Origin: Candidatus Firestoneibacteriota bacterium
GTDB lineage: Bacteria; Oederibacteriota; JAAXVQ01
Length of the DNA stretch: 15,475 nucleotides
Assembly (NCBI GenBank): GCA_013335425.1
Contig: JAAXVQ010000014.1
Span: 1 to 15,475, forward strand
Direction: 5' to 3'
The notes beneath the pieces are model-generated. The model ran no database searches, had not been told where the DNA came from, and saw nothing but the letters and a program-made list of their open reading frames with translations. The translations under genes and the position numbers were made by a program. Below are positions 1 through 15,475 of the stretch, piece by piece. Position 1 is the first letter of the stretch. Each line of letters opens with the position of its first letter.

Positions 1-250
1 GGAAAAAAAATCCAAGCGCGTTTTGGTGAAAAAGAAAATTACACAGGTTACGGCGCCGGTGGTGACTTTAATTTCAGCGCCGGCCTTGGAAGAAACGGCC
101 GCGCCGCCGGAAGTGGAAAAAAATGGAACATCCCCGATTGCCGAAAAAGGCAATTCGCCCGTTTCCGCCCAATCCGATTCAACCACGGATGTCGGAGCCT
201 CGCCGGTACCGGTTCCCGGCTCGGATCCGACGCCTCCAAAACTGCCATGA
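1..250 (+). CDS. C-terminal tail of an unidentified Pro/Ala/Ser-rich protein (5' truncated)
   Basis: The frame is open from the left edge to the TGA at 248-250, giving the last 82 residues of a longer protein. A TTG at 23 and a GTG at 26 exist, but nothing shows that translation begins there. The visible part begins with a short basic stretch (KKSKRVLVKKK) and continues as low-complexity sequence rich in Pro, Ala, Ser, Thr and Glu, ending in repeated Pro-Val and Pro-Pro pairs. Such tails are usually disordered linkers or C-terminal extensions, and no domain or catalytic motif can be seen. Its TGA overlaps the ATG of the methyltransferase gene (ATGA at 247-250), so it is probably the upstream member of the same transcription unit. 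I do not recognise the protein, and its function must be read from sequence left of this window. Confidence 0.6.
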   Translation, partial: EKKSKRVLVKKKITQVTAPVVTLISAPALEETAAPPEVEKNGTSPIAEKGNSPVSAQSDSTTDVGASPVPVPGSDPTPPKLP

Positions 251-957
251 GCAGGCAAATAACCGCCTGGCGGCAGGAATACCTTACTGGCGGAAAAACG
301 CGCATAGAATCTTCCTACACCTTGCGCCCCGAGCCCAGCGTACTTTGGTTTCACCGTCAATTACGGCAACAGGGCCTGCGGTTGGGAAAGCTGTTGGACT
401 TGGGATGCGGTCGAGGCAGAAACAGCCTGGTTTTTCTCAAGCACGGCTGGCGGGTGGAAGGTCTCGATGCGGCCGGGGAAGCTTTGCGGGATTTTAAACA
501 TTTGGCGGGTCCGCTGTCGGCAGGCTTGGGTTTGCAGCAGCGGGATTTTAAACAACCTCTCCCGTTTCCCGACCGGCATTTTGACGCCGTGATGGAAATT
601 ACCGCAGCCGACAATATTGCGGATCTTCGTAAACGGGAGAAATTTTGGCGAGAAATTTGCCGCGTGCTGAAACCCGGGGCGTATTTTTTTTCCTACCATT
701 TTACTCCTAAGGACGGCTATTACGGTCCGTTGCTGAAAAAATCTCCCGACAATTCCCGCGGTTTGCTGTTTGATCCCCGAGGGCATATGACTTTCCGATT
801 TTACGATGTTGAGGAAATTATTCGTGCAATGCGGGGGCAGTGCACGCTCTGTGCCCGGCAAAGCTACCGTTATCCGGGACCCATGTTCGGCAGTATTTAT
901 CAGCGGGATTTAATCGCGGCGCTCTTTAAGAAAACGGGGGACCCCCATGCGGCTTAA
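247..957 (+). CDS. Class I SAM-dependent methyltransferase
   Basis: The 236-residue product is a cytosolic methyltransferase of the Rossmann-fold type that uses S-adenosylmethionine. Motif I is LLDLGCGRGRN at residues 49-59. An acidic residue ending strand 2 (EGLD, D74) would bind the ribose. FDAV at 112-115 and the RVLKPGAYFF stretch at 139-148 match the later motifs of the Methyltransf_11/25 group. The LDLGCGRGRNSL wording resembles TehB-like enzymes, but that does not fix the substrate. The start at 247 overlaps the stop of the preceding gene in an ATGA, with no strong ribosome site, so translational coupling is likely. It sits directly before an SDR, a PTPS-family enzyme and FolE2. A pterin or a pathway intermediate is therefore a possible substrate, but this is inference from position only. 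The family call is secure; the substrate is unknown. Confidence 0.88.
   Translation: MSRQITAWRQEYLTGGKTRIESSYTLRPEPSVLWFHRQLRQQGLRLGKLLDLGCGRGRNSLVFLKHGWRVEGLDAAGEALRDFKHLAGPLSAGLGLQQRDFKQPLPFPDRHFDAVMEITAADNIADLRKREKFWREICRVLKPGAYFFSYHFTPKDGYYGPLLKKSPDNSRGLLFDPRGHMTFRFYDVEEIIRAMRGQCTLCARQSYRYPGPMFGSIYQRDLIAALFKKTGDPHAA
936..946 (+). promoter_or_regulatory. G5-A-C5 palindrome abutting the SDR start codon
   Basis: Five G (936-940), one A (941) and five C (942-946) run directly into the ATG at 947. The G run is the only Shine-Dalgarno-like sequence for the SDR gene, and the C run could pair with it. In mRNA the innermost pairs cannot close over one base, so any hairpin would be short. The site lies inside the end of the methyltransferase gene, so ribosomes finishing that gene would open it. 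A coupling role is plausible but unproven. Confidence 0.3.
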
Positions 958-1678
958 AGGCAAACGCATACTTATTACCGGCGCGGGGCGCGGCATCGGG
1001 CGTGCAGTGGCTTGTCAAGCCGCACGTGAGGGCGCTTGGGTTGCCCTCAACAGCCGTACGGAATCCGAGTTGGATGTTTTAGCCGCCACCTTGAGGGACG
1101 AAGGTGGAGAATGCCTGGTAACGCCCGGAGACATAGGCTGCGAAGAAACCGTGCGTCGGATTTTTTGCGACCTTCGCCGAACTTGGGGCGGGCTCGACGG
1201 GTTGGTGAACGGTGCCGCGATTTTCAAACGCGGGCTTATCCGGGACATGGTGTTGTCGGATTTTCAGGAAGTCATGCGTGTCAATCTCATTGGACCGTTG
1301 TTGTGCGCCCGTGAAGCATTCGGATGCATGTTGCCGGGTGGGACGGTGGTAAATATTTCCTCCTTGTCGGGAGTTGCCGGGGTCCAAAAGTTCGAGGGCT
1401 TTACCGCCTATGGCTTGAGCAAGTTCGGGCTTGTCGGTTTGACTGAAATGATGGCTCTGGAGGGGAAAATCTTGGGGATTCGTTCCAATTGCATTTCGCC
1501 GGGTGCGGTGGATACGGGTATGCTGGCCGAGGCGGCCCCGGGGTTGGTGCCTTTTTTAGAACCGACGGATGTGGCGGACGTTGTTTGCTTTCTGCTCTCC
1601 GCTGAAAGTTGTGCTTTAAACGGCGCCAACTTGATTTTGGACGGAAATTCGCGCACCGGGGGGGCGGGGAAACCATGA
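947..1678 (+). CDS. Short-chain dehydrogenase/reductase (SDR), possible pterin reductase
   Basis: The 243-residue product is a classical SDR oxidoreductase. TGAGRGIG at residues 11-18 is the dinucleotide-binding loop. N35-S36-R37 after strand 2 favours NADP(H). The usual NNAG is NGAA at 88-91. N113, S139 and Y155-x3-K159 form the catalytic tetrad, and SPGAVDT at 184-190 is the usual post-catalytic loop. The C-terminus reads LILDG instead of the common VDGG. Annotated in isolation it would be called a FabG/3-oxoacyl-ACP-reductase-like SDR. It overlaps the methyltransferase by 11 bases and the PTPS gene by an ATGA, and FolE2 follows. Sepiapterin reductases are SDRs, so reduction of 6-pyruvoyl-tetrahydropterin is a reasonable hypothesis. 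It lacks the TGxxxRxG arginine typical of pteridine reductase 1 and FolM, so those are less likely. The family is certain; the substrate is inferred. Confidence 0.9.
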   Translation: MRLKGKRILITGAGRGIGRAVACQAAREGAWVALNSRTESELDVLAATLRDEGGECLVTPGDIGCEETVRRIFCDLRRTWGGLDGLVNGAAIFKRGLIRDMVLSDFQEVMRVNLIGPLLCAREAFGCMLPGGTVVNISSLSGVAGVQKFEGFTAYGLSKFGLVGLTEMMALEGKILGIRSNCISPGAVDTGMLAEAAPGLVPFLEPTDVADVVCFLLSAESCALNGANLILDGNSRTGGAGKP

Positions 1679-2094
1679 TGTATCTGACCCGTAAAGTCGA
1701 GTTTTGCGCCGCGCATCATCTGGTCTCGGAACAACTTTCCGCTGAGGAAAATGTCCGGGAGTTTGGGAAATGCGCCCGGCGCGCCCCCCATGGGCATAAT
1801 TTTGTTTTGGAAGTCACCCTCCGTGGGGAAGTGCAACCTCGGACGGGGTTGGTTTTTAATCTGGCAGCCTTAAAAACGCTGTTGCAGGAATTGATTGTGG
1901 CTTGGCTGGATCACCGGGATTTGAATTGTTTGCCGGAATTTTCCGGCCTGGTTCCAAGCTCCGAAGTTTTGGCACAACAGATTTGGAAAAAATTGGCGGC
2001 GGTTTCGTTTATTCCGGCCCAACTGCATGAAATCAGGCTATGGGAAACCGGAAACAACAGCGTAACCTACCGCGGGGAAGGGGAAGGGTCATGA
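1675..2094 (+). CDS. ptpS: 6-pyruvoyl-tetrahydropterin synthase (PTPS-II-like; PTPS/QueD family)
   Basis: The 139-residue, zinc-dependent enzyme of the T-fold superfamily would act on 7,8-dihydroneopterin triphosphate. Zinc ligands are H14 (CAAHH), H39 and H41 (HGH). The catalytic set is C33, D79-H80 and E124 (LWETGNNSV). The spacing is C-A-R-R-A-P-H-G-H, i.e. C-x5-HGH, the pattern of mammalian-type synthases. QueD has C-x3-HGH and the folate-rescue PTPS-III has E-x2-HGH. LVFNLAALK at 59-67 also resembles the eukaryotic 'MVMNL' wording rather than the QueD-type DF. The start is ATG 1675, overlapping the SDR stop. ATG 1678 is also possible and is better spaced from GGGGA at 1666-1670. An upstream in-frame ATG at 1609 lies deep in the SDR gene and is unlikely. 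FolE2, which makes its substrate, is the next gene. Automated annotation may call it queD. Confidence 0.88.
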   Translation: MMYLTRKVEFCAAHHLVSEQLSAEENVREFGKCARRAPHGHNFVLEVTLRGEVQPRTGLVFNLAALKTLLQELIVAWLDHRDLNCLPEFSGLVPSSEVLAQQIWKKLAAVSFIPAQLHEIRLWETGNNSVTYRGEGEGS

Positions 2095-2885
2095 AAGACG
2101 TGCAAAACGAGGCGGATTACCGGAATTTGGCCATCAATAAGGTGGGTATCCGCAATATTAAATATCCCATTTCAGTTTTAGATCGGGCCCACGCCGCTCA
2201 ACATACGGTGGCGGATGTTAATCTATACGTTCAATTGCCGGAGGAGTTCCGCGGCACGCATATGAGCCGTTTTGTAGAAATTTTAAACCGCTATCAAAGG
2301 GAAATCGATGTGCGAAATTTGGATGAAATTCTTTCCAGCATGCGGGAACACCTGCATTCCGAGGCGGCCTATTTGGAGCTCTCCTTTCCTTATTTTATTG
2401 AAAAGCATGCGCCGATTTCCAAAGCCTCCAGTTTGATGGAGTACAATTGCACCATGATGGCCAGCCAACACCGGAACGGCACCAAGGATTTCGTGCTGAC
2501 GGTGAAAGTTCCGATTATGACGCTCTGCCCGTGTTCCAAGGAGATCAGCGACCGGGGAGCGCACAACCAAAGATCTTTGGTTACGGTTTCCGCCCGCATG
2601 AACAATTTGGTGTGGATCGAAGAATTGATTGAACTGGTAGAGAGGCAGGCGGTTTTGGATCTCTACGCGCTGCTCAAACGTGAAGACGAGAAATTCGTTA
2701 CTGAACGTGCCTATGACAACCCGGCGTTCGTGGAAGATGTCGTGCGCGAGGTCGCCTTGGCTCTGCGTGCCGATCCGAGGATCGAGTGGTTTACTGTCGA
2801 AAGCGAAAACATGGAAAGCATTCATAACCATAATGCGTATGCCTTCGTCGAAATTGACCGCAGGGTACCGGCGCGGAAAACCTAA
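2091..2885 (+). CDS. folE2: GTP cyclohydrolase I, FolE2 (type IB)
   Basis: The 264-residue enzyme converts GTP to 7,8-dihydroneopterin triphosphate and formate, the entry step to folate, queuosine and biopterin. The hallmark is TLCPCSKEISDRGAHNQRS at residues 144-162. By register with the Neisseria enzyme as I recall it, the metal ligands correspond to C146, H158 and E200, and the spacings fit. AHAAQHTVADV at 33-43 and the C-terminal ESENMESIHNHNAYA at 238-252 are also typical of the family. The ATG at 2091 overlaps the PTPS stop (ATGA, 2091-2094) and follows a purine-rich GGGGAAGGG. The longer frame from ATG 2040 lies within PTPS and is rejected. FolE2 enzymes accept metals other than zinc and are often zinc-repressed where FolE also exists. 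No Zur-like site can be judged here because the operon promoter is outside the window. No convincing terminator follows. Confidence 0.95.
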   Translation: MKDVQNEADYRNLAINKVGIRNIKYPISVLDRAHAAQHTVADVNLYVQLPEEFRGTHMSRFVEILNRYQREIDVRNLDEILSSMREHLHSEAAYLELSFPYFIEKHAPISKASSLMEYNCTMMASQHRNGTKDFVLTVKVPIMTLCPCSKEISDRGAHNQRSLVTVSARMNNLVWIEELIELVERQAVLDLYALLKREDEKFVTERAYDNPAFVEDVVREVALALRADPRIEWFTVESENMESIHNHNAYAFVEIDRRVPARKT

Positions 2886-3040: not shown

Positions 3041-3664
3041 ATGGCGTTATCCAGCAGCGGGTCCCGTCCCAGTGAAATCAAGTTTTTAGTGGACTTGGAA
3101 AAACACACTTATCTCAGCGATAAAGCCCACCAGGAGATCATCGACCATGCAGGTTTGAATCCGGCCGGGTATGATAATTATCTTAAAGGTTGGGTCAAAC
3201 GGGACGGCACGATCAAAATTTGGGTGGAGACCATGGAAGATTTGGCCTTCCGCTATTGGGAACAGATTAAAATGGCGTTCGGCATGCTCTTGAAGGAAAA
3301 AGTGATATCGCAGGGGTCCCGTACCTATGCGGTGGTCAATCGCGTGGATCGCTTTGCCGGCAAAGTGGAGGACTTTTTGGCCTGCGCCAGCCGCAATCAA
3401 TATTTTGAAAATCAACTGGGCTATGCCATTCATCTCTACGGCGCCCCTAAAATTGCCCAAGGCACGGAAGTGCTGCTGTTGGTGAATTATCTCTGCCGTG
3501 AAGGGCAATACCTGCTGGCGGGAACGCGCGGCCGGACATTGACGGCGGCAGGGCCTATGGCCAAACGTCTCCGCGTCAAGTGGCAGCACAGCGTGAACGG
3601 ATTGATGCGTCCCGGCCGGAGCGTAGAGTTGCTTACCGACCGGCGTTTGTTGACCTTGGCCTGA
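3041..3664 (+). CDS. Hypothetical protein, unrecognised family
   Basis: The 207-residue protein was not recognised. It has no signal peptide, no membrane segment and no familiar catalytic signature. It is mixed hydrophobic and basic with many aromatic residues. It begins with a Ser-rich leader (residues 4-9), then a charged region with LVDLEKHTYLSDKAH (16-30) and YDNYLKGWVKRDGTIKIWVE (44-63). A middle helix-like stretch FRYWEQIKMAFGMLLKEKV (70-88) follows, then a C-terminal part rich in Arg (KRLRVKWQHSVNGL and beyond). The composition suggests a soluble cytoplasmic protein. It has its own promoter-like upstream region and a good ribosome site (AGGGGG, 3025-3030). A GTG-started metallophosphoesterase-fold gene follows after 27 bases, so the two are probably co-transcribed. 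The coding call rests on frame length, start context and gene packing. Confidence 0.75.
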   Translation: MALSSSGSRPSEIKFLVDLEKHTYLSDKAHQEIIDHAGLNPAGYDNYLKGWVKRDGTIKIWVETMEDLAFRYWEQIKMAFGMLLKEKVISQGSRTYAVVNRVDRFAGKVEDFLACASRNQYFENQLGYAIHLYGAPKIAQGTEVLLLVNYLCREGQYLLAGTRGRTLTAAGPMAKRLRVKWQHSVNGLMRPGRSVELLTDRRLLTLA

Positions 3665-3691: not shown

Positions 3692-4453
3692 GTGCAGATT
3701 CTGGTGATTTCAGACCTCTTGGGGGCCATGGACCGCGTCAAGGAAATGGCGCAAAAATGTTCCCAATATTCCTTGGATGCCGTCTGTTTTTGCGGCAATA
3801 TCGTTAATGGACAAGCGCGCCAGGCTGAATGGTCGCAGGCACAGCGTGATGACCGCACCCCCAATCGTAATCAGGTCGGCATCCTGCAGGAAGCTTTGGA
3901 AGATTTAAGGCAATACCGGATTTTTTGCCAAACCTTGGACTCTTTGGGGATTCCGGTTTTGTTGGTGCCTGGGCATTTGGACGCGCCTGAAGAACGTTTC
4001 TTTTTGTTCATGCAGCAGGCGGCGTTTTTATCGGACAACATCGTTCTTTTGCATGAAAACGTTACGCGTGTGGAAAAATTCATTTTTACGGGATTTGGCG
4101 GTGAAATTACGCCCGGCGACAAGGAAGATTATTTTCTTCTGAAATATCCCCGGCAAGAATGCATTTTCGGCACGCGGCGCATGCGCTTTTTAAATCCTCC
4201 GCGGATCATCATTTTTCATTCACCGCCTATTTCCAAATTGGATCTGGAGGACGGCCAACACCGAGGAGCCCCTTTCGTAAACGAAATTATTGACGCCGTG
4301 GCGCCCTCGTTTCTTTTTTGCGGACATGTGCCCACGGCTTGGGGCATGGAAAAAATCGGAGAAACCCTGGTAGTCAATCCCGGAGCCTTGGCCCTCGGAC
4401 AATACGCCCTCGTTGATACCCAAGAAAAATCCGTCCAATTTTTAACTTTGTAA
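3692..4453 (+). CDS. Metallophosphoesterase-fold protein with degenerate metal site (Icc/COG2129-like)
   Basis: The 253-residue protein follows the layout of calcineurin-like phosphoesterases, closest in my reading to the Icc-related group (COG2129). Motifs in order are ISDLLG (6-11, normally SDxHG), FCGNIVN (33-39, normally GDxxN), VPGHLD (92-97, normally PGNCD or PGNHD), GFGGE (134-138), FHSPP (175-179), FCGHVP (209-214, normally GHxH) and VVNPG (227-231). D8, H176 and H212 remain. The positions usually holding H (10), D (36), N (95) and H (214) are L, N, H and P. The two-metal centre therefore looks incomplete, which suggests loss of catalysis or a changed metal site. The start is GTG 3692, about 10 bases after a GGGGG run. 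The fold is well supported; activity is doubtful. It probably belongs with the preceding unknown gene. Confidence 0.85.
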   Translation: MQILVISDLLGAMDRVKEMAQKCSQYSLDAVCFCGNIVNGQARQAEWSQAQRDDRTPNRNQVGILQEALEDLRQYRIFCQTLDSLGIPVLLVPGHLDAPEERFFLFMQQAAFLSDNIVLLHENVTRVEKFIFTGFGGEITPGDKEDYFLLKYPRQECIFGTRRMRFLNPPRIIIFHSPPISKLDLEDGQHRGAPFVNEIIDAVAPSFLFCGHVPTAWGMEKIGETLVVNPGALALGQYALVDTQEKSVQFLTL

Positions 4454-5869: not shown

Positions 5870-7564
5870 ATGAGCGTATTGCAGATAGCGCTAGTCCAAA
5901 TGAATTCGGTCATGGGCGCTTTGGAGCAAAATCGAAATAGGATTTTTCGCTCATGCAGCGCAGCCCGGGAGGCCGGTGCCGACGTAGTGGTTTTTCCCGA
6001 GCTGGCGTTATGCGGTTACCCCCCCGAAGATCTTCTCCTGACGCAAGCTTTTTTAACCGAAACCCGGGAAGCCTTGGACTGGCTTGCGCAAAAAATACAG
6101 GGACTATGCGTTCTGGTGGGTTTTGCGCATAACGAAAACGGCAAAGTTTATAATGCCGCCGCCTGGTTGCAGGACGGCCGCGTAGCGGCCGTTTATCGGA
6201 AAATTGAATTGCCGAATTACGGTGTTTTTGATGAAAAACGCTATTTTTCTTCCGGGGATGAATTGGTTTGCGTGACCTTGAAGGGCGCGCGCTTGGCTTT
6301 GAGCATTTGCGAAGATCTTTGGGTGGCAGGAGGGGCATTTGAGACCAAGCTGCAAATTCAACCGGCGGATTTGGTTCTCAACATATCCGCCTCGCCGTTT
6401 CATGCCGGGAAATTGGCCACCCGCCGCGAGGTTTTGGCCGGCTTTTCCCAGCGCAACCGGGCAGCCATCGCCTACTGTAATCTATTGGGCGGGCAGGATG
6501 AACTGGTATTTGACGGCGGGAACATGTTTTTTGGCATGGACGGAACGTTGTTGGCCGAATCCCGCCGTTTTGAGGAAACAGTTTTGTTGATCGGATTTGA
6601 TGCGGTTCAGGGTCAGGCGGCCGGGACGATACGGGAATTTGTCCTTGACCGGGAAGGCGCTTGGTTGGCGGACGCGTCAAACCCGCCGGTTTTGGAAGGC
6701 ATCGCCGAAGTTTATCAGGCTTTGGTTTTGGGCACCCGGGATTATGTGGAAAAAAACGGTTTTGCTCGGGTTGTTATCGGATTATCCGGAGGCGTGGATT
6801 CGGCTTTAACGGCGGCTTTGGCCGTGGCCGCTTTGGGGCGTGACCGGGTCATCGGCGTTACCATGCCTTCGGAATTTACTTCTGAGGGTACCTTGGACGA
6901 TGCCCGCCGAGTGGCGGAAGCATTGAGCATTAAGCTGCATACCATACCCATCGAGCCGTTCATGCGGGTTTACGGCGCGCAATTATCCGGGTTGCTGGGG
7001 CCGGGAAGCGAGGGCGTGGCGTTTGAAAATCTTCAAGCCCGGATCCGCGGCAATATTCTCATGGCCTTATCCAACCGCCATGGCTGGTTGGTGCTGACCA
7101 CGGGGAACAAGAGCGAAACCGCCACCGGTTATTGCACGCTTTACGGAGATATGGCCGGAGGCTTTGCGGTGATTAAAGATGTTCCCAAAACCATGGTTTA
7201 TGAAGTTTGCCGTTACCTGAACGTTCAAGCCGGACTAGAACTCATATCGCAGTCGGTATTGGACCGGCCGCCGAGCGCCGAATTGCGACCCGATCAAAAG
7301 GATGAAGATTCATTGCCGCCTTATGCCGAGCTGGACCCGATTTTGAAAGCCTACGTGGAGGAAGACCGTTCACCGGATGACATTATTGCTCTGGGCTTTT
7401 CTCCCGAGACGGTTATGGAGGTTATTCGTTTGGTCGATCGCAGCGAATACAAGCGGCGCCAGGCTCCCCCGGGCATTAAAATCACGCCGAAAGCTTTCGG
7501 CCGCGACCGGCGCTTGCCGCTGACCAATCAATACCGCCCCCGCAGCACGCACTTTAGGCCCTGA
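5870..7564 (+). CDS. nadE: Glutamine-dependent NAD+ synthetase
   Basis: The 564-residue cytosolic enzyme makes NAD+ from nicotinate adenine dinucleotide, ATP and glutamine. It has two domains. The N-terminal nitrilase-like glutaminase (about 1-250) has the triad E44 (FPELALCGY), K111 (YRKIELPN) and C147 (SICEDLW). The C-terminal synthetase (about 280-564) has the ATP pyrophosphatase loop LSGGVDS at 305-311, TTGNKSETATGYCTLYGDMAGG at 410-431 (NaAD and ATP contacts) and the PPSAELRPDQKDEDSLPPY region. Length and motif order are normal for the bacterial two-domain form. The ATG at 5870 has AAGGA at 5857-5861. The longer open frame reaching back to 5501 overlaps the transglycosylase gene and has no nitrilase homology, so it is excluded. 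Its packing between a cell-wall enzyme and a tRNA-modifying enzyme looks like ordinary housekeeping clustering. Confidence 0.97.
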   Translation: MSVLQIALVQMNSVMGALEQNRNRIFRSCSAAREAGADVVVFPELALCGYPPEDLLLTQAFLTETREALDWLAQKIQGLCVLVGFAHNENGKVYNAAAWLQDGRVAAVYRKIELPNYGVFDEKRYFSSGDELVCVTLKGARLALSICEDLWVAGGAFETKLQIQPADLVLNISASPFHAGKLATRREVLAGFSQRNRAAIAYCNLLGGQDELVFDGGNMFFGMDGTLLAESRRFEETVLLIGFDAVQGQAAGTIREFVLDREGAWLADASNPPVLEGIAEVYQALVLGTRDYVEKNGFARVVIGLSGGVDSALTAALAVAALGRDRVIGVTMPSEFTSEGTLDDARRVAEALSIKLHTIPIEPFMRVYGAQLSGLLGPGSEGVAFENLQARIRGNILMALSNRHGWLVLTTGNKSETATGYCTLYGDMAGGFAVIKDVPKTMVYEVCRYLNVQAGLELISQSVLDRPPSAELRPDQKDEDSLPPYAELDPILKAYVEEDRSPDDIIALGFSPETVMEVIRLVDRSEYKRRQAPPGIKITPKAFGRDRRLPLTNQYRPRSTHFRP

Positions 7565-7571
7565 TTTCAAC

Positions 7572-8537
7572 ATGCCACTCGGACAACCCCTGCGCTTAGG
7601 ACGCCACTCGGTGTTTCCGCCGTTGCTGATGGCCCCCATGCTGGATATCACCAACCGCGCCTTTCGCACCTTGGTGCGCGGCTACGGCGGCTGCGGCCTG
7701 TTCTATACGGAAATGCTCAATGCTCGGCGTTTGCCCACCGAGTCCGCGCAATCGCCTTTTTGGCAAGGTTTGGGCGTGGAACGCGACGTCATGGTACAAC
7801 TCCTAGGGGATGACCCGGAGGCCTTGGCCCGTTCCGTAGAGCGTCTGCTGCCCCTGGATCCCTTCGGTTTTGACTGGAATTTGGGTTGCGCGCGCAAGAA
7901 AATTACCCATTGGGGTTGGGGCGCGGCATTGTTGGAAAATCCGCAGGCCACGGCCCGGGGCTTAAGGGCTCTGCGTCAGGCCACGGACAAACCGCTTACC
8001 GTAAAAATTCGCCTACCCGAGCATGGCCATCCCGACTTATTCAAGTCGTTCATTAAACTTTTGGAAAACGAAGGGGTGGACGCCATTACCGTGCATGCCC
8101 GCACTGCCGCGGACGGATTCAAACGTCCCGCCCGTTGGGATGCCATTGCCCAAGTCAAGTCCTGGACCAAGGTGCCGGTCATCGGCAACGGCGATGTGCA
8201 GAGTGCTGCCGATGCCCAAGCTATGTTTCAAAAAACAGGCTGTGACGCGGTCATGATCGGACGCGGAGCCGTGGGCAAACCTTATTTGTTTAAAACGATT
8301 ATAAATCAAGCTTCCGGCGCCACGGAACCCGCGCCCGAAGCCGCGAAAGTCTTGGAAGCCATGTTGACGTGCTTGGATACGGCGCTGGAAACGCCGAAGG
8401 GCGCCAGGGAATTCAAGGTTTTTTGCCGTTATTTTGCCCAAACGTTGCCTGTCCCGCACTGGTTTTGGGCGCCCTTGCAATCCATGACTTTAGGACCGGA
8501 ACTGGCAAAAAGAGCGAGAGTTTTTTTTAAAAAATAA
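7572..8537 (+). CDS. dus: tRNA-dihydrouridine synthase (Dus family)
   Basis: The 321-residue FMN enzyme reduces specific uridines in tRNA to dihydrouridine using NADPH. It starts with MAPMLDITNRAFR at residues 20-32 (FMN-binding strand of the TIM barrel). Catalytic C106 lies in NLGCARKK, K145 in VKIRLP, and H175 in TVHAR. NGDV (206-209) and MIGRGAVGKPYLF (228-240) are phosphate-binding loops. The usual motif is NxGCP; here the residue after Cys is Ala, a mild departure that keeps the acid-base Cys. The C-terminal helical domain is present but short. The gene starts 7 bases after the nadE stop, without a strong ribosome site. It ends against a strong terminator and converges with the giant repeat-protein gene. 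The subfamily (DusA, B or C) cannot be set with confidence. Confidence 0.92.
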   Translation: MPLGQPLRLGRHSVFPPLLMAPMLDITNRAFRTLVRGYGGCGLFYTEMLNARRLPTESAQSPFWQGLGVERDVMVQLLGDDPEALARSVERLLPLDPFGFDWNLGCARKKITHWGWGAALLENPQATARGLRALRQATDKPLTVKIRLPEHGHPDLFKSFIKLLENEGVDAITVHARTAADGFKRPARWDAIAQVKSWTKVPVIGNGDVQSAADAQAMFQKTGCDAVMIGRGAVGKPYLFKTIINQASGATEPAPEAAKVLEAMLTCLDTALETPKGAREFKVFCRYFAQTLPVPHWFWAPLQSMTLGPELAKRARVFFKK

Positions 8538-8606: not shown

Positions 8607-11600
8607 CTAGTTCTTGACGCCCAACTTACCTTTCTTGGTACCGCCTTCACCCGTAATCACATACAGATAAATCCCGCTGGCGATCGAGCTGCCGCCCTCG
8701 TTGTTCAAATCCCAGGACATCTTGTCGGTGGTGTCGTTTTTAGTGAGGGTCTTGACCAAATGACCGTCCAGGGTATAAATCTTCAACGTGGCCGTATTGG
8801 AGGGAATGAGGAAGAACGTAAATGTCTTGTTGATCGAGTCCTTCTTCGTGATCGGGTTGGGATAGACGATCACGTCCGACCAGGAAGGCGAAGCCAAGTG
8901 GTAGGTGTTGGATTGCATGGGTGTCGGCTCGCTGGAAGTATAGACTGTTAAAGTATAGTCGCCGACATCCGGCGGATTGAGAATGCCCGAACGGCTGGTG
9001 ATGATCACTTCCACCGGGGTTGACACCCCCAATGATGTCGGCACAGGAATGCTTAAAACTTGAGCGGCACTGGTGGCCGGGGCGGTGGTCTCCTGACCGT
9101 TGACGGTGATCATTCCGGCGGGAATGGATGCCGGGAGTTGCACGTTGGCGGGGAAGAGCACAGCGATGTTTGAAACGCCGCTTACCAGCCCACCCAAAGC
9201 GCCCAAATTGAAATTGATCTTATAACGTCCAGCTGAGCGTGTAAAAGCCGGAAAAAGGTCAACCTGCGGCTGGGAAATGGTTGTGCTTGAGGATGCGCCG
9301 ATGGTGAAGGGCGTTGAAGTGACATAGGTGTTTTCTGTTTTGGTCTTGCCCATAAGTGTGAAAGTACCGGGCAGGGACGGATTGATAATGCCGCTGGCTG
9401 AAGAGAAAATTACCGTGACGCTGCCTAAATTGCTGACATTGACCGGGGTCGTGATTTCTAGAGTGTTTCCGTTTTTTACGCTGACAGCAGGAGGCGTAAC
9501 CCCGTTGACGGTTATGCTTGCCAGAGACATGGTTTTGGGCAGCGAGACCGCTGTTGGAAAAGTGATCGAAATGGTGTCAGAATGAATAATGGCTAAACTG
9601 CCCCCGGACCCGAGGTTAAAAGAAATGGCGTATTGGGCATTTGCAAAAATTGTCGGCGGCGTGACGGTAATGGAAGGCGCTGTAATGGTCGAGGTGGACG
9701 TGGTTTGATAGGAGTTCGAAACGACCGAGTTGGGCTCGGCATCCGTCCAGCAATAGGGCAAGGTCCAACCATACTGGGGTGTCGAAGGATTGGAGAGGCC
9801 GATGATGGTCGGCGGATTGGATAAAAACTCCACGGTAACAGGCTGTCCATTGTTACCCACACTAACCGTGGGCGGAACCAGCAGACGGACAACTTTGCCC
9901 AAGGAGTAAACCGTGCCGGTATTGGCGACGGTGTTGATCAGAATTGTTCCCGGAGCAAAGGAAGCGGGAACGATGGTGTCGGCGGGAAAAATGGGTGTAG
10001 CGGGAAATTGCAAATTAATCAAATTGCCGGGAGACAAGCGACCGTGTTGTCCGGTGGAAAAAGAAATAGTGTATTTCGAAGGCGCACCGGAGGTGTCGGG
10101 GAAATTGACGACAGAGGGGTTGGAAATAACGTTCAAAGTGGATTTGTCCGGTATAAGCTGGAAGGTTCCGCTGCCGGGTTGTTGAGCCGTGGTTTGCAGA
10201 GTAAGGGTGTTGTTCCCGGGTATGCTTGAGTTCAACAGAACGCCGTTGGGCAAGTAAATAGTGTAGATGCCCGCCGGCATATCTACGCTGGGAATTAAAA
10301 CGATATAGGAACCGGCTTGGTTGCCGGTTATGGAGGCCAGTGTCGTGCCGGTAATGGTTGCCCCTGTAATGGGCCCATTGGAAATTAGGGTGTTGGCCGG
10401 AAATGAGACCCGGATTTGACCTTTGTTTGCGCGTTGGACCACGGTAAAGGTCGCGTTGAGGGTATAAGCGGAGGGAACATTGATCTCGTTGTTGGCCACG
10501 GTTGTCACGGTAACGGAGACAGGTCCGCCCAAACCAATGGTGTACGCCGGACTCGTGCCGACATGCTCAGGCGTGGTGGAAACCGTCACAGTATTGCCGG
10601 CACTGGCATAAGTGGGATTTTGCAATCCGGCTACCGTAGCGGTTAAACCGGTGTAAACCCCGAAGTTGGTACTCGGAACGATATCCAATACGCCACCCAC
10701 ATAGTTGCCGGTGGCGGGCTGGCCGCTGAGGGTGACGGTCGGAGCAGCGGGAACCACCGTGTCGACGGGGAAGGTGATATAAATATGACTGGCGGAAGCA
10801 ATCAGCGGGCCATAACGGCCCGTACTGAAATTGATCGTATAATTTGAAGTGCTGCCCACGGTGTTGGGCGAGCACGAGACGCCGGTTACGGAAATGGAAT
10901 CGCCGGACTGCTGAATGGAATAAGCGGGACTATTCCCGACTCCCTGAAGGGTGGTTGCCACCGCCAATTGAACCATACCGCCGCTTGTGGGATTGCGTAC
11001 TCCCACGGTAAGCGGAATAACCACCGGCACGCCTGACGAGTTGGCGGGGATCGGGGCGGGGATAGTAATGTCGATCTGGTTGCCGCCACTTCCTGTGGCT
11101 GTAACTACCGGTATACCGTTGACGGTGAGACCGGTTACGTTTAAAACGCCAATCGGTAGGTTGGTGCTTCCTGGGAAGGTGATTTGCAGGTGGCTGCCGG
11201 TAACCAAACCACCGTCAGAGCTGGTGTTGAACGAGAAGTTATAGGCTGCCTGGTTGCCGATGATATTGGGGTTGGCAGTTACAGTGCCGACCACCAAGGT
11301 GGAGCCTGAAGCACCAATACTATAGTTGGCGCTGTTTCCGGCTGTAGTCTGTACGCTGGTGGAAATGGACAAGTGGTATAGCGTGCTGGAGGTCGTGGGA
11401 TTTCTGATTTGCAGCGATTTTGGGAAAAAGATGTTGATGTTGTTGGTTCCGGCAGGAATATCTTGGGTAAGGGTCAAAGTGATGGACAGCAGCGCGCTGG
11501 AGCCGGTGGCGCTAATGACCTGGATGCCGCCAACCGTCAAACCGGTTGGTGATAAGGAGCCGTTGGGAACAACCGTATCGGAGGGGAAGACGACCGTAAT

Positions 11601-14600
11601 GGTGCTGGTCCCGCCTACCAAAGCGCCATCGGCAGAAGCATTAATGGTTGTGGAATAATCGGCATAATTTCCCATCGTGTTCGGTGTAGCCGAAGTAGGG
11701 CCGCCTACCAGGATGTTGTTGGAATGCGTAATAGTATAAATGCCGCTGTTGCCGGAACTGGTTTGCACGGAAGTAGAAACGATCAGATGCCCGGTTGTGG
11801 GATCGACGAGAGGGTTTCGCACCAAAGTTGCAGCGGGAATCATTACGGGCACATTAAGCGTTCCGCCGGTGATATCCGAGGGAATGGTAAGGGTGATGGT
11901 GTTGCCGCCGCTGCCTGAGGCGGAGGTAACCGGTTGACCATTGACCGTAAAACCGGTTACGTTCAACGCGCCCAAGGGGACAACGGTTCCGGCAGCGGAA
12001 AAGACAATCGTCATTTGGCTGGTTCCGCCGACCAAAGCACCGTCACCTGAAGGGGTAAAGTTGAAAGAGTACGCTCCGTAGTTGCCGATGGTATTGGGAG
12101 TTACTGAACAAGTGCCTACGCTTAAGAGATTGCTGGAAGTTACGATGTTGTAGGTGCCGGAACTGTTGCCGGCAGTCGGTTGCGTTGAGGTTGCAACCAT
12201 AAGCTGCAGGCCCGAAGCCGTATTTGTTGGGTTGCGCACAAAGGCATTGGTGTTAAAGCGGATGGTGTAGGCAGTACTGGGAAGAAGGTCAATGGGGGTG
12301 ATGAAGGTTACGGTTTGACCCGAGCCGCTGGCGGTGACAACCGTTGTGCCGGGCATGCTGGTTCCGATTTGGAGATTTCCCGCAACGAAGGTGGCCGGCA
12401 CCAAGGTGCCCGCGGGAAAGGTCACGGAAATTGTGCTGGTGCCGCCCAACAAAGCACCGTCGGCGCTGGTGGTGAAAGTGACGTCATATTGCCCGTAGTT
12501 ACCAATGGTGTTGGGGGCAACCGCGACCGCCCCCACCGAAAGTGTGGTACCTGAGGTGCTGATGGCGTAGGTGGTGCTGGTGCCCGCTATAGTCTGCATG
12601 CTGGTTGAGATGTTTAGTGCATAGAGCGTTCCGGTGGCATGCGGATTGCGCACAAGCGCGGTCGTGGTGAATCGTATAATATAGGTCGTGTTGGCAGCCA
12701 AATTGATGGGCGTGGTGAAGGTGACCACTTGGCCTGATCCGCTGGCCGTGGCCACTGCGGTGCCGGGCATCGTAGTGCCAATGCGGATATTTCCAGCCGC
12801 AAAAGTGGCGGGGACGATGGTGCCATTGGGGAAGGTTACGGAAATCGTGCTGATGCCGGCTGTCAAGGCACCGTCCGCACTGGTGGTGATGGTAACGTCA
12901 TATTGACCGAAGTTGTCGATGGTGTTGGGCGCCAACGTGACGGTGCCCACAGAAAGCACTGTGCCCGAGGTGACGATGGAATAAGTGTTGCTGGTGCCGG
13001 CGGTGGTTTGAGTGCTGGTGGCAACCGTAAGAGTCTTGGCGGCGCCGGGTATATGTGGATTACGGATCAGGGCGCTGGCGTTGAACCGAATAATATAAGC
13101 CGTATTGGGGGCCAGGTCGATAGGTGTGGTGAAGGTGACAGCTTGACCTGATCCGCTGGCGGTGGCAACCGAGGCGCCGGGCATGGAGGTCCCGATCAGA
13201 AGATCTCCGGCGGCAAAAGTAGCCGGCACCACCGTTCCGGCAGGGAACGTCACGGTGACGGTGCTGGTGCCACCCAACAAAGCGCCATCGGCACCGGTGG
13301 TCAGGTTGATGTCATATTGCCCGATGTTATCAATGCCGTTGGGTGAAACCGTAATGTTACCGACGCTGAGCATAGTACTTGAAACTGCAACCACATAATT
13401 GTTGCTGGTGCCGGCAGTGGGTTGGGTGCTGGTGGCAACGGTCAGCGTTTTGGTCGCACTGGGTGTATGCGGATTGCGGATAAGTGCACTGGTATTAAAA
13501 CGGATAATATAAGAAGTGCTGGCAGCCAGGTTGATGGGTGTGGTGAAGGTGACGGATTGTCCGGACCCGCTGGCCGTAGTCACACCCGTGCCGGGCATAG
13601 AGGTCCCGATTCTAAGATCGCCGGCAGCAAAAGCAGCCGGTACCACGGTGCCGGCGGGGAAAGTTACGGTAACAGTGCCGACACCGGCCACCAAGGCACC
13701 GTCGGAGCTGGTGGTGATGTTGATGTCATATTGACCGATATTGTCGATGGCATTGGGCGCGAGATTAACCGTGCCGACTGTCAACATGGTGCCGGAAGAT
13801 GAAATGGTATAACTGGCGCTCCCGGAAGTGGTTTGCGTACTGGAAGCAACACTCAGGCTTTTGGAACCGGCAGAATGCGGATTGCGGATCGCCGCGCTGG
13901 CAGTGAACCGGATGGTATAAGTTGTGTTTATAGCCAAGTCGATCGGCGTGGTGAAGGTGACGTTTTGTCCTGACCCGCTGGCGGTCGTTACCGAAGAACC
14001 GGGCATGGAGGTGCCGATCAAAATATCTCCGGCCGCAAAGGAGGACGGCACGTTGGTTCCGCCCGGGAAGTTCACAGTAATAGTGCTGGTGCCGGCTAGC
14101 AAACCACCATCGGCACTGGTGGTGAAGTTAATGTCGTATTGAGCAACGTTGTCGACGGTGTTGGGTGAGACCGCGATGGTGCCGACTGAAACCGGAGTGG
14201 CGGAGAGCCCTACCGTATAATTGTTGCTGGTGCCGGCGGTGGTTTGCGTGCTGGTGGCGACGTTAAGGCTCTTGGACCCGCCTGCATGTGGATTGCGAAT
14301 CAGTGCCGTCGCATTGAAACGGATAATATAGGCTGTTGATGCAGTCAGGCTGATAGGCGTTGTGAACGTGACGGTTTGGCCGGAACCGCCGGCGGTTGTG
14401 ACGGCCGTGCCGGGCATGGAGGTTCCGATGCGGAGATCGCCCGCGGCAAACGTAGCGGGTACCACGGTACCTGCCGGGAAAGTCACGGTCACGGTGCCGG
14501 TATTGGCAAGCAAGGCACCGTCGGAGCCGGTGGTGATGTTGATGTCATATTGACCGAAATTGTCGATGGTGCTTGGGGCCAGGGTAACATTACCAGCCGA

Positions 14601-15475
14601 AAGTATTGTTCCTGAAACAGCCAGGGTATAGCTGTTGCTGGTGCCGGTGGTGGTCTGAGTGCTGGTGGCGACGTTAAGGGTCTTGGCACCGACGGCATGT
14701 GGATTGCGTATCAACGCGCTGGTATTGAAACGGATAATATAGCTGGTGTTGACAGCCAGATTGATGGGAGTGGTGAACGTTACCGCTTGACCAGATCCGC
14801 TGGCGGTAACAACCGATGTTCCGGGCATGGACGTTCCAATTAAAAGATCTCCGGCCGCAAAAGTGGCCGGTACCACGGTACCTGCCGGGAAAGTCACAGT
14901 CACGGTGCTGGTATTGGCAAGCAAAGCGCCGTCGCCGCTGGTGGTGAAGTTGATGTCATATTGACCGAAATTGTCGATGGTGGTTGGGGTCAGAGTAACA
15001 TTGCCGACCGAAAGAATTGTACCTGAAACGGCCAAGATGTAGTTGTTGCTGGTGCCGGCGGTGGTCTGGGTGCTGGTGGCGACGTTAAGGGCCTTGGCAC
15101 CGGCGGTATGCGGATTGCGTATCAACGCGCTGGTATTGAAACGGATAATATAGCTGGTGTTGACAGCCAAGTTGATGGGGGTGGTAAAAGTCACGACTTG
15201 TCCGGATCCGCTGGCGGTAACAACTGACGTTCCGGGCATGGACGTTCCGATTAAAAGATCTCCGGCCGCATAAGTGGCCGGTACCACGGTGCCGGCCGGG
15301 AAAGTTACCGTAACCGTGCCGACACCGGCAAGTACGGGACCGTCGGCACTGGTGGTGATGTTGATGTCGTACTGGGCGATGTTATCGATAACACTGGGCG
15401 AGACAGTCACGTTCCCCACGGAAAGGGGGGTAACTGAGGGTGAAATGGTATAACTGCCGCTACCGGCGGTGTTTT
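8607..15475 (-). CDS. Giant tandem-repeat surface protein, 5' end outside window
   Basis: The frame is open from the stop at 8607-8609 to the right edge, giving 2288 residues. A GTG at 15417-15419 is internal: the 18 residues before it continue the repeat (NTAGSGSYTI...PLSV), so the true start is beyond the window. The visible protein is 16 full units of 125-149 residues plus a 94-residue C-terminal module. It is rich in Thr, Ser, Gly, Val and Ala, nearly without Cys and poor in Lys, as expected of secreted beta-sandwich stalks. Each unit has an xYDIN(I/F)T strand, (A/S)DGALL, TVTFPAGT-VP, a central ASGSGQ loop, IRF/IRNP and TSTQT. A signal peptide cannot be checked here. I would call it an adhesin or S-layer-like stalk by composition and architecture; no ligand-binding domain is visible. 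Confidence 0.9.
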   Translation of the reverse strand, partial: NTAGSGSYTISPSVTPLSVGNVTVSPSVIDNIAQYDINITTSADGPVLAGVGTVTVTFPAGTVVPATYAAGDLLIGTSMPGTSVVTASGSGQVVTFTTPINLAVNTSYIIRFNTSALIRNPHTAGAKALNVATSTQTTAGTSNNYILAVSGTILSVGNVTLTPTTIDNFGQYDINFTTSGDGALLANTSTVTVTFPAGTVVPATFAAGDLLIGTSMPGTSVVTASGSGQAVTFTTPINLAVNTSYIIRFNTSALIRNPHAVGAKTLNVATSTQTTTGTSNSYTLAVSGTILSAGNVTLAPSTIDNFGQYDINITTGSDGALLANTGTVTVTFPAGTVVPATFAAGDLRIGTSMPGTAVTTAGGSGQTVTFTTPISLTASTAYIIRFNATALIRNPHAGGSKSLNVATSTQTTAGTSNNYTVGLSATPVSVGTIAVSPNTVDNVAQYDINFTTSADGGLLAGTSTITVNFPGGTNVPSSFAAGDILIGTSMPGSSVTTASGSGQNVTFTTPIDLAINTTYTIRFTASAAIRNPHSAGSKSLSVASSTQTTSGSASYTISSSGTMLTVGTVNLAPNAIDNIGQYDINITTSSDGALVAGVGTVTVTFPAGTVVPAAFAAGDLRIGTSMPGTGVTTASGSGQSVTFTTPINLAASTSYIIRFNTSALIRNPHTPSATKTLTVATSTQPTAGTSNNYVVAVSSTMLSVGNITVSPNGIDNIGQYDINLTTGADGALLGGTSTVTVTFPAGTVVPATFAAGDLLIGTSMPGASVATASGSGQAVTFTTPIDLAPNTAYIIRFNASALIRNPHIPGAAKTLTVATSTQTTAGTSNTYSIVTSGTVLSVGTVTLAPNTIDNFGQYDVTITTSADGALTAGISTISVTFPNGTIVPATFAAGNIRIGTTMPGTAVATASGSGQVVTFTTPINLAANTTYIIRFTTTALVRNPHATGTLYALNISTSMQTIAGTSTTYAISTSGTTLSVGAVAVAPNTIGNYGQYDVTFTTSADGALLGGTSTISVTFPAGTLVPATFVAGNLQIGTSMPGTTVVTASGSGQTVTFITPIDLLPSTAYTIRFNTNAFVRNPTNTASGLQLMVATSTQPTAGNSSGTYNIVTSSNLLSVGTCSVTPNTIGNYGAYSFNFTPSGDGALVGGTSQMTIVFSAAGTVVPLGALNVTGFTVNGQPVTSASGSGGNTITLTIPSDITGGTLNVPVMIPAATLVRNPLVDPTTGHLIVSTSVQTSSGNSGIYTITHSNNILVGGPTSATPNTMGNYADYSTTINASADGALVGGTSTITVVFPSDTVVPNGSLSPTGLTVGGIQVISATGSSALLSITLTLTQDIPAGTNNINIFFPKSLQIRNPTTSSTLYHLSISTSVQTTAGNSANYSIGASGSTLVVGTVTANPNIIGNQAAYNFSFNTSSDGGLVTGSHLQITFPGSTNLPIGVLNVTGLTVNGIPVVTATGSGGNQIDITIPAPIPANSSGVPVVIPLTVGVRNPTSGGMVQLAVATTLQGVGNSPAYSIQQSGDSISVTGVSCSPNTVGSTSNYTINFSTGRYGPLIASASHIYITFPVDTVVPAAPTVTLSGQPATGNYVGGVLDIVPSTNFGVYTGLTATVAGLQNPTYASAGNTVTVSTTPEHVGTSPAYTIGLGGPVSVTVTTVANNEINVPSAYTLNATFTVVQRANKGQIRVSFPANTLISNGPITGATITGTTLASITGNQAGSYIVLIPSVDMPAGIYTIYLPNGVLLNSSIPGNNTLTLQTTAQQPGSGTFQLIPDKSTLNVISNPSVVNFPDTSGAPSKYTISFSTGQHGRLSPGNLINLQFPATPIFPADTIVPASFAPGTILINTVANTGTVYSLGKVVRLLVPPTVSVGNNGQPVTVEFLSNPPTIIGLSNPSTPQYGWTLPYCWTDAEPNSVVSNSYQTTSTSTITAPSITVTPPTIFANAQYAISFNLGSGGSLAIIHSDTISITFPTAVSLPKTMSLASITVNGVTPPAVSVKNGNTLEITTPVNVSNLGSVTVIFSSASGIINPSLPGTFTLMGKTKTENTYVTSTPFTIGASSSTTISQPQVDLFPAFTRSAGRYKINFNLGALGGLVSGVSNIAVLFPANVQLPASIPAGMITVNGQETTAPATSAAQVLSIPVPTSLGVSTPVEVIITSRSGILNPPDVGDYTLTVYTSSEPTPMQSNTYHLASPSWSDVIVYPNPITKKDSINKTFTFFLIPSNTATLKIYTLDGHLVKTLTKNDTTDKMSWDLNNEGGSSIASGIYLYVITGEGGTKKGKLGVKN
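8610..8891 (-). other. C-terminal FlgD-Ig/T9SS-type-A-like module of the giant protein
   Basis: The last 94 residues differ from the repeats. They read VIVYPNPI, then TFTFFLIPSNTATLKIYTLDG, HLVKTL, MSWDLNNEGG, SSIASGIYLYVITGEGG and KKGKLGVKN. This 'YPNP...I-Y-DG-V-TL...W-N-G...SGIY-Y' order is shared by FlgD-like Ig modules and by type IX secretion type-A sorting domains. Many uncultivated phyla carry it at the end of large secreted proteins. It probably directs export or surface attachment. Which of the two roles applies depends on whether the genome has T9SS genes, which this window cannot show. Confidence 0.8.
8892..12116 (-). repeat. Diverged half of the tandem array: units 9-16
   Basis: Units lie at 11703-12116, 11289-11702, 10887-11288, 10512-10886, 10128-10511, 9681-10127, 9270-9680 and 8892-9269 (138, 138, 134, 125, 128, 149, 137 and 126 residues). 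They keep only the framework: a Y-x-I-x-F strand, DGxL/GGxL, an FP strand and late NP. Units 9-11 replace the GTSMPG segment with VTG(F/L)TVNG-x-V. Units 15-16 have SITVNG/MITVNG and SGI(I/L)NP. Unit 13 loses the DG motif, and unit 14 is longest, with an inserted WTLPYCWTDAEPNS segment. Boundaries are aligned by eye and may shift by a few residues in units 12-16. Confidence 0.8.
12117..15416 (-). repeat. Conserved half of the tandem array: units 1-8 (411-417 bp each)
   Basis: Counting from the N-terminal side, units lie at 15006-15416, 14595-15005, 14184-14594 (137 residues each), 13776-14183 (136), 13362-13775, 12948-13361, 12534-12947 (138 each) and 12117-12533 (139). By hand, units 1 and 2 agree at 115 of 137 residues, and residues 41-102 of the unit differ at only two positions. 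In DNA, 60 bases from 14701 and from 15112 differ at two. The exact 411-base offset shows recent duplication. Every unit keeps DGAL/DGxxL, FPxGT-VP, GTSMPG or close variants, ASGSGQ, IRF and NP. Confidence 0.92.

Follow-up and report, generated by a model that had tools for sequence, protein, structure and literature searches.

A FolE2-containing operon with a PTPS-II type synthase and an associated SDR: a candidate route to a tetrahydrobiopterin-type pterin in a Candidatus Firestoneibacteriota bacterium

Four overlapping genes at the start of the window (the whole stretch of 15,475 nucleotides that was analysed, from a Candidatus Firestoneibacteriota bacterium) are best read, with a probability of about 0.58, as an operon that would make an unconjugated pterin of the tetrahydrobiopterin type, which serves animals as a cofactor of enzymes, by way of FolE2, a 6-pyruvoyl-tetrahydropterin synthase (PTPS) and a short-chain dehydrogenase/reductase (SDR), with a methyltransferase (MT) probably tailoring the product. 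This reading is preferred because the PTPS is of type PTPS-II, the SDR belongs to a separate clade, its relatives adjoin PTPS-II in all 25 PTPS-II genomes of the Ktedonobacteria class and a GT4 glycosyltransferase is found in 19 of those 25 loci.

Organization of the four genes

The positions given for the four genes in the earlier note were recovered, all as Pfam-matched open reading frames that overlap by 4–11 bases (Table 1), and their family assignments are far above chance. MT and SDR overlap by 11 nt, and the SDR/PTPS and PTPS/FolE2 junctions each consist of a 4 nt overlap (ATGA). FolE2 scored 297.6 bits against the NCBIfam equivalog model (cut-off 215).

Table 1. Features in the first part of the window
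Feature	Position	Strand	Basis or remark
C-terminal tail of upstream frame	2..250	+	open at contig start; stop overlaps MT start
Class I SAM-dependent methyltransferase (MT), 236 aa	247..957	+	Pfam Methyltransf_11, 1.2e-15
Classical SDR, 243 aa	947..1678	+	Pfam adh_short_C2, 1.4e-44; NADP-type by motif
SDR active-site stretch	1361..1423	+	S139 1361-1363, Y155 1409-1411, K159 1421-1423; alignment A4
Predicted PTPS-II type 6-pyruvoyl-tetrahydropterin synthase, 139 aa	1675..2094	+	Pfam PTPS, 1.4e-30
Cx5HGH signature, CARRAPHGH (C33, H39, H41)	1771..1797	+	motif read in PTPS
FolE2, GTP cyclohydrolase IB, 264 aa	2091..2885	+	Pfam GCHY-1/FolE2, 1.1e-97; NCBIfam equivalog
207-aa protein (context)	3041..3664	+	without Pfam or NCBIfam match
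Metallophos_3 phosphoesterase (context)	3692..4453	+	Pfam

The same four-gene order was looked for in related genomes, as had been proposed, and was not kept in a genome of the same genus (G001, 99% complete). The PTPS-FolE2 pair is retained there with an altered PTPS motif (CRSLHGH, Cx3HGH), and no SDR or MT of the window kind was found at E<=1e-30, with at most seven candidates scored per genome. A glycosyltransferase of G001 was considered as a pterin glucosyltransferase and found no support, its best solved matches being other GT4 enzymes.

PTPS subfamily and the role of FolE2

PTPS homologues were misannotated for a long time; excerpts of the same source give Cx5HGH as the PTPS-II motif and CExxHGH as the signature of PTPS-I/III hybrids, which is tied to both pathways (PMC5041015). 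Cx5HGH is present in the window PTPS and also in its six near relatives P0002–P0007. The ExxHGH motif of PTPS-III is absent from the window PTPS, which has R at that position. Against solved structures the window protein scored 106 bits to the best-matching PTPS chains, which we take to be those of rat and human, and 47 bits to Escherichia coli QueD; residues presumed to bind zinc and to act in catalysis in the rat chain align with the corresponding positions of the window PTPS. A second PTPS elsewhere in the genome carries CENCHGH and adjoins a QueE-like protein, and G001 likewise has another PTPS with CENCHGH next to QueE. No QueC or QueE family member was detected by Pfam or NCBIfam among the nine window genes scanned around the PTPS; the queC/queE neighbours that would have spoken against the earlier note did not appear there, and the queuosine branch is served elsewhere in the genome. 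By its sequence the window PTPS is of type PTPS-II and is predicted to synthesize 6-pyruvoyl-tetrahydropterin. The claim that it is a genuine synthase type was thus upheld by the motif, the animal structures and the separate PTPS beside QueE, while the signature itself holds for the window and P0001–P0007 and not for the same-genus orthologue.

A role for the window PTPS as another QueD, making 6-carboxy-tetrahydropterin, is very improbable. Such a function would fit the Cx3HGH of the same-genus orthologue and the second NCBIfam match, QueD at 65 bits, which lies under the cut-off of 89. In a quick tree of sequences filtered to 100–300 aa, the window PTPS stood apart from the QueD proteins of E. 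coli and of its own order, and its clade was not clearly split from the QueD-like P0017–P0029. Against a second QueD are the motif shared with six near relatives, which is not CxxxHGH, the far better match to animal PTPS and the existing QueD-QueE pair with its hybrid motif, and it was set aside as the main reading.

Bypass of FolB in folate synthesis, in which the PTPS would act together with FolE2 in the manner of PTPS-III and the SDR and MT would be passengers, is improbable. FolB (PF02152) was not found in any of eight genomes of the order, FolK was found in seven of them, including that of the window, and FolE2 lies next to the PTPS. This bypass was nevertheless rejected as the main reading, as ExxHGH is lacking and the hybrid motif is carried by the other PTPS, beside QueE, in the window's genome and in G001; the motif occurs likewise in two f2 genomes (CENLHGH or CENVHGH).

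No GTP cyclohydrolase I other than FolE2 was found in the window's genome (84% complete), and FolE was not found in any of the eight order genomes. FolE2 forms a block with the 207-aa protein and the phosphoesterase downstream of it in all six order genomes with FolE2, four of which have no PTPS within 1.5 kb of it; this block predates the insertion of the PTPS. A FolE2 dedicated to the pterin route was rejected because it is the sole GTP cyclohydrolase I found and its block stands without PTPS in most of these genomes. FolE2 must feed folate as well.

The use of FolE2 with this PTPS had been called unusual, and the neighbourhood counts agree: among the best 80 of 576 PTPS relatives, a sample that favours PTPS near that of the window, FolE2 lay within 3 kb at one locus, FolE at 71 and some SDR at 27. 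A coverage of only 0.13 at most is given for FolE beside PTPS-II in an excerpt of PMC5445326, and neighbourhoods therefore vary across the whole subfamily. An aromatic amino acid hydroxylase had been suggested as a pterin user; none was found in 44 genomes (the window's own and 43 others), and therefore the route has no known pterin user among them.

The SDR and its PTPS-II neighbourhood

The SDR contains TGAGRGIG, followed by NSRT after the second strand. The active-site residues S139, Y155 and K159 are invariant across 26 aligned sequences, window included (alignment A4), as are G16 and the stretch K148 F149 x G151. Sequences for the trees were filtered to 120–360 aa, and a quick tree took in 28 of the 120 SDR relatives listed. 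The window SDR fell into one clade of 41 rows, with support of 95/98, together with the SDRs of Ktedonobacteria and the relatives sampled; this second tree was built without FolM, three further long rows and 20 of the 32 Ktedonobacteria rows. The Chlorobium sepiapterin reductase 2bd0, the only sepiapterin reductase compared, fell outside this clade; in the quick tree it grouped with Acidobacteria/Ignavibacteria SDRs on a branch flagged as long. In the tree that gave the 41-row clade, the 26 rows labelled as the SR lineage, an SDR from Deltaproteobacteria among them, did not group together as a single clade. The window SDR scored 85 bits to 2bd0 and higher to several other solved SDRs, a FabG-like one reaching 108 bits.

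Identity with FabG was not supported, as the best NCBIfam FabG model gave 134 bits against a cut-off of 222 and both FabGs compared fell outside the window SDR clade in two trees. The tree check that had been asked of the SDR thus gave no grouping with FabG, and placed the clade apart from the Chlorobium sepiapterin reductase as well. The pteridine reductases FolM, PTR1 and PruA carry TGx3RxG, according to an excerpt of PMC13259868; the window motif is TGx3GxG, and neither this motif nor the NCBIfam cut-offs supported FolM, the place of which in the quick tree is meaningless with a branch of 8.3. We propose that the SDR is a reductase of the 6-pyruvoyl-tetrahydropterin/sepiapterin type.

Of 47 genomes in the Ktedonobacteria class (that of G384), 25 encode PTPS-II, and these 25 and no others encode an SDR at least 69% identical to that of locus L059; the two genes were observed side by side in all 25 loci read. 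These data support the proposal that the SDR is a pathway partner of the PTPS. The GT4 glycosyltransferase lies within about 1.5 kb in the 19 loci that have it. The one tested (L047) scored 151 bits to UDP-glucose:tetrahydrobiopterin glucosyltransferase, 168–169 bits to its best solved matches, 8x3q and 7fg9 (the latter a glucosylsucrose synthase), and 55 bits or less to the remaining GT4 enzymes. Six of the 47 genomes have an aromatic amino acid hydroxylase, and none of the six is among the 25 with PTPS-II. No MT relative showed in the SDR loci read for the Ktedonobacteria class. Searches of open-licence literature on Ktedonobacter tetrahydrobiopterin and on pterin methyltransferases brought up no report of such an operon, the latter leading to work on methanogens.

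The methyltransferase and the proposed pathway

The AlphaFold2 model of the MT has a pLDDT of 95.4. Fold and family searches returned generic class I methyltransferases only, with no informative single match, and the fold therefore gives no hint of the substrate. Among the matches listed were 21 close relatives (P0196–P0216, 49–68% identity). Co-occurrence was inferred from equal longest-contig sizes. On this basis an SDR fragment (73% identical to that of the window) and a PTPS (77%) would share a contig of 1,087 bases, and the MT and PTPS relatives P0197 and P0003 one of 82,976 bases, a size that did not occur among the 120 SDR relatives listed. Only one of the six near PTPS relatives, P0002–P0007, shares a contig size with an SDR match and one with an MT match. 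MT and SDR relatives had six contig sizes in common (2035, 2403, 9374, 10453, 70916 and 1597075 bases), P0206 and P0078 pairing at 70,916 and P0213 and P0079 at 1,597,075. None of these six sizes occurred among PTPS matches P0002–P0016, from an insensitive search that collected 100 PTPS candidates.

These six apparent pairs are what would be expected if MT and SDR formed a gene pair of their own with some other small molecule as substrate, placed upstream of PTPS-FolE2 and sharing only a transcript. The lack of a match to either gene in G001 and the presence of the SDR in 14 Ktedonobacteria-class genomes without PTPS-II point the same way. Such a pair is nonetheless unlikely, given the constant SDR-PTPS adjacency in the Ktedonobacteria class, the overlap of all four window genes and a PTPS search too word-limited to exclude a PTPS on the six contigs. 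The link of the MT to the pathway, proposed in the earlier note, accordingly has its operon position and one contig apparently shared with PTPS in its favour, and the seeming MT-SDR pairs elsewhere against it. For the biopterin-type operon as a whole, the PTPS-II type and the SDR partner held up, the dedication of FolE2 and the conserved gene order did not, and the MT may belong to the route.

For the tetrahydrobiopterin-type route we infer the activities, product and MT step from sequence as follows. FolE2 would convert GTP to 7,8-dihydroneopterin triphosphate, which would also feed folate and queuosine; PTPS-II would convert this to 6-pyruvoyl-tetrahydropterin; and the SDR, with NADPH, would reduce the side-chain ketone(s) to a tetrahydrobiopterin-like product. 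The MT would probably tailor the product by capping it with a methyl group at the point where a sugar is attached in cyanobacteria and presumably in Ktedonobacteria. More specifically, and only tentatively, the MT may methylate the side chain or ring of the tetrahydropterin to give a methyl-capped tetrahydrobiopterin, the methyl group replacing the glycoside sugar and the SDR clade representing a second recruitment.

Compared with the animal route of GTP cyclohydrolase I, PTPS and sepiapterin reductase, the window has a PTPS of the same subfamily; it differs in having FolE2 rather than FolE/GCH1, an MT in the operon and an SDR in another clade than the only sepiapterin reductase in the tree, a bacterial one. 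PTPS-II is also common to the cyanobacterial tetrahydrobiopterin glucoside pathway (PTPS-II, SR and BGluT/PgtA), the glucosyltransferases of which, from an excerpt of PMC3546692, resemble the GT4 near window-type SDR and PTPS in the Ktedonobacteria class; no glycosyltransferase was present among the window genes scanned, which have an MT instead. In Acidobacteria/Ignavibacteria clusters a GTP cyclohydrolase I, PTPS-II and an SDR adjoin as in the window, but the cyclohydrolase is FolE and the quick tree puts their SDRs together with the sepiapterin reductase of Chlorobium, which for L076 is also the best solved match. Agrobacterium PruA, in excerpts of PMC13259868, offers a case of a reduced pterin that is made by an SDR and also O-methylated, 2'-O-methylmonapterin, in a bacterium; PruA and FolM differ from the window SDR in motif, Agrobacterium is without biopterin synthesis genes, and the word methyltransferase is absent from that review.

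Few groups of bacteria are known to make biopterin-type pterins, according to an excerpt of PMC5041015. If the proposed route is correct, an operon that relies on FolE2 and on another clade of reductase would extend the possible range of such synthesis, and SDR-PTPS adjacency would serve as a rule for finding it in other genomes. If the methyl cap is also correct, the operon would supply a gene for the methylation of an unconjugated bacterial pterin, a step suggested on chemical grounds for Agrobacterium (2'-O-methylmonapterin). The SDR clade would then represent a second type of 6-pyruvoyl-tetrahydropterin reductase, recruited independently. Methylated unconjugated pterins are considered possible bacterial redox signals in part of PMC13259868, and a linked MT would make their origin testable.

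Gene cluster and 6-pyruvoyl-tetrahydropterin synthase (PTPS)

Four genes, encoding a methyltransferase (MT), a short-chain-type reductase (SDR), a PTPS family protein and GTP cyclohydrolase IB (FolE2), are joined on the plus strand by overlaps of 4–11 bases. They are followed 3′ on that strand by genes for a 207-aa protein without family, a phosphoesterase, a lytic transglycosylase, NAD synthase and tRNA dihydrouridine synthase (Pfam/NCBIfam). The C-terminal segment of the long minus-strand frame resembles a sorting or FlgD-type domain.

Coordinates of the cluster genes and of other features mentioned
Feature	Position	Strand	Observation
MT	247-957	+	ORF; Pfam match over curated cut-off
SDR	947-1678	+	ORF; Pfam match over curated cut-off
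PTPS	1675-2094	+	ORF; Pfam match over curated cut-off
FolE2	2091-2885	+	ORF; Pfam match over curated cut-off; NCBIfam equivalog cut-off also passed
Long frame, window	8607-15419	-	2,270 aa, open at contig end; ~120-residue repeats (by eye)
L021, same genus (G001)	9943-10359		PTPS orthologue with Cx3HGH, not Cx5HGH
L022	787-1150	-	QueD-like protein, PTPS-I/III hybrid CENCHGH, adjoins QueE
L118, Vampirovibrio record	6582-8417		FolE2, then two PTPS copies

The best-supported reading is a route from GTP to a tetrahydrobiopterin-type pterin, in which FolE2 would be the shared first enzyme, and 6-pyruvoyl-tetrahydropterin synthase (PTPS-II), then an SDR from a separate clade, would complete the pathway. 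The top solved-structure matches of the window PTPS were PTPS of rat and human (106 bits), with QueD of E. coli at 47. Its motif, CARRAPHGH, is of the form Cx5HGH, which is kept in six relatives at 70–77% identity and is given for PTPS-II in PMC5041015. Relatives at 39–50% identity, among the best 80 of 576, came from records labelled Acidobacteria, Ignavibacteria, Chlorobi, Ktedonobacterales, Nitrospina and others. In a poorly resolved tree (141 columns, 209 rows) the window clade lay apart from QueD of E. coli and of its own order, and the QueD-like P0017-P0029 fell in the same poorly resolved part. Homologues without Cys before HGH (e.g. AANANGHGH) were seen at L070, L097, L109, L118, L120 and in P0015, the five loci each having a second PTPS copy adjoining.

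Queuosine and folate

A second PTPS in the window's genome, with the motif CENCHGH, adjoins a QueE-like protein. CExxHGH is a hybrid motif tied to both queuosine and folate in PMC5041015, and FolB was found in none of the eight genomes of the order; this protein is therefore a likelier FolB substitute than the window PTPS. The L022 protein, from the order in which FolB was not found, is a likely substitute. QueC was found in the seven other genomes of the order (a fragment in G003) and not in the window's, which is 84% complete. A PTPS with C-x14-HGH was the sole PTPS match in each of eight genomes (L024-L031, in G024, G027, G021, G030, G018, G033, G013 and G038), adjoining NAD synthase or one ORF away; FolB was present in all seven of these that were searched (G038 lay outside the search).

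The reductase and its Ktedonobacteria relatives

Along with classical SDR motifs, the SDR carries an Arg that follows the second strand and hardly varies among relatives; a K-F-x-G located between its catalytic Ser and catalytic Tyr was invariant in the alignment of 26 sequences. A FolM/PruA-type assignment was not supported, as TGx3RxG, the motif of those reductases in PMC13259868, is absent. The SDR grouped with P0076-P0085 in two trees (support 100/99 in the second), within a clade that also holds Ktedonobacteria SDRs (95/98 in the second tree). Two FabGs fell outside the SDR's clade in both trees, so the grouping with FabG that the earlier note had named as a refutation was not seen. Chlorobium sepiapterin reductase was also outside the clade; in the quick tree it joined, by a long branch, the SDRs of Acidobacteria and Ignavibacteria. 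Rows were picked by similarity and animal sepiapterin reductases left out, and other SDR families could be nearer. At E<=1e-30 the SDR was found in three of 59 genomes, the copies in the two besides the window's own being only 34–37% identical. A limited literature search did not show this clade tied to a tetrahydrobiopterin-type route.

Among 47 genomes of the Ktedonobacteria class (the class of G384), PTPS-II occurred in 25 (E<=1e-25), and the same 25 carried an SDR that matched the one in L059, a PTPS-II locus of the class, with 69% identity or more. Both genes shared a locus in all 25, with 17–646 bases between matched stretches (24 measured), and 19 of these short loci included a GT4. The GT4 tested (L047) scored 151 bits to UDP-glucose:tetrahydrobiopterin glucosyltransferases, a higher 168–169 to two entries, one a glucosylsucrose synthase, and 55 to the next GT4 enzymes. 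Evidence against such a link is that fourteen further genomes of the class had an SDR at 53–66% identity and no PTPS-II at E<=1e-25. Aromatic amino acid hydroxylase, which the earlier note had put forward as a pterin user, was found in none of 44 genomes, the window's own and 43 others, so no known user of the pterin was found. In the Ktedonobacteria class the hydroxylase was present in six of the 14 and in none of the 25 PTPS-II genomes; these six of 47 (L179, L180 and four further genomes) all have an SDR at 53–63%. In those six genomes, none of which has PTPS-II, a different reduced pterin may be what the SDR works on.

Methyltransferase and assembly of the operon

Structure prediction for the MT gave, with high confidence, a generic class I fold. 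At E<=1e-30 the MT was found in one of 384 genomes, the window's own (up to seven scored candidates per genome listed). Among the matches listed, its close family comprises 21 proteins at 49–68% identity. The main rival to the pterin route is that MT and SDR form an independent pair. Judged by equal contig sizes, six of the 21 MT relatives apparently lie on a contig with a relative of the SDR, one such pair carrying the label candidate division FCPU426, and one lies with a PTPS relative; by the same measure, only one of six close PTPS relatives shares a contig with an SDR and only one with an MT. Under the pterin route, methylation of the product by the MT is a guess from gene position. Precedents are the O-methylated monapterin proposed in Agrobacterium (PMC13259868) and cyanopterin with its 4-O-methylglucuronyl group (PMC3546692).

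FolE was found in none of the eight genomes of the order. FolE2 was found in six of 16 genomes searched, all six of the order, and in each it stands with the 207-aa gene and the phosphoesterase; FolE2 is thus shared, not exclusive to the pterin route. Among the best 80 of 576 PTPS relatives, L118 was the only FolE2-PTPS neighbourhood. The order in the window is MT-SDR-PTPS-FolE2; the same-genus G001 has hydrolase-PTPS-FolE2, and neither an SDR nor an MT like those of the window was seen in its genome. In the four FolE2 genomes of the sister family an alpha/beta hydrolase, 35–40% identical to that of G001, lies next upstream of the FolE2 block. Because these three arrangements differ in this way, the operon looks to have been built stepwise, PTPS having probably been inserted upstream of FolE2 in the genus and MT-SDR in the window's lineage.
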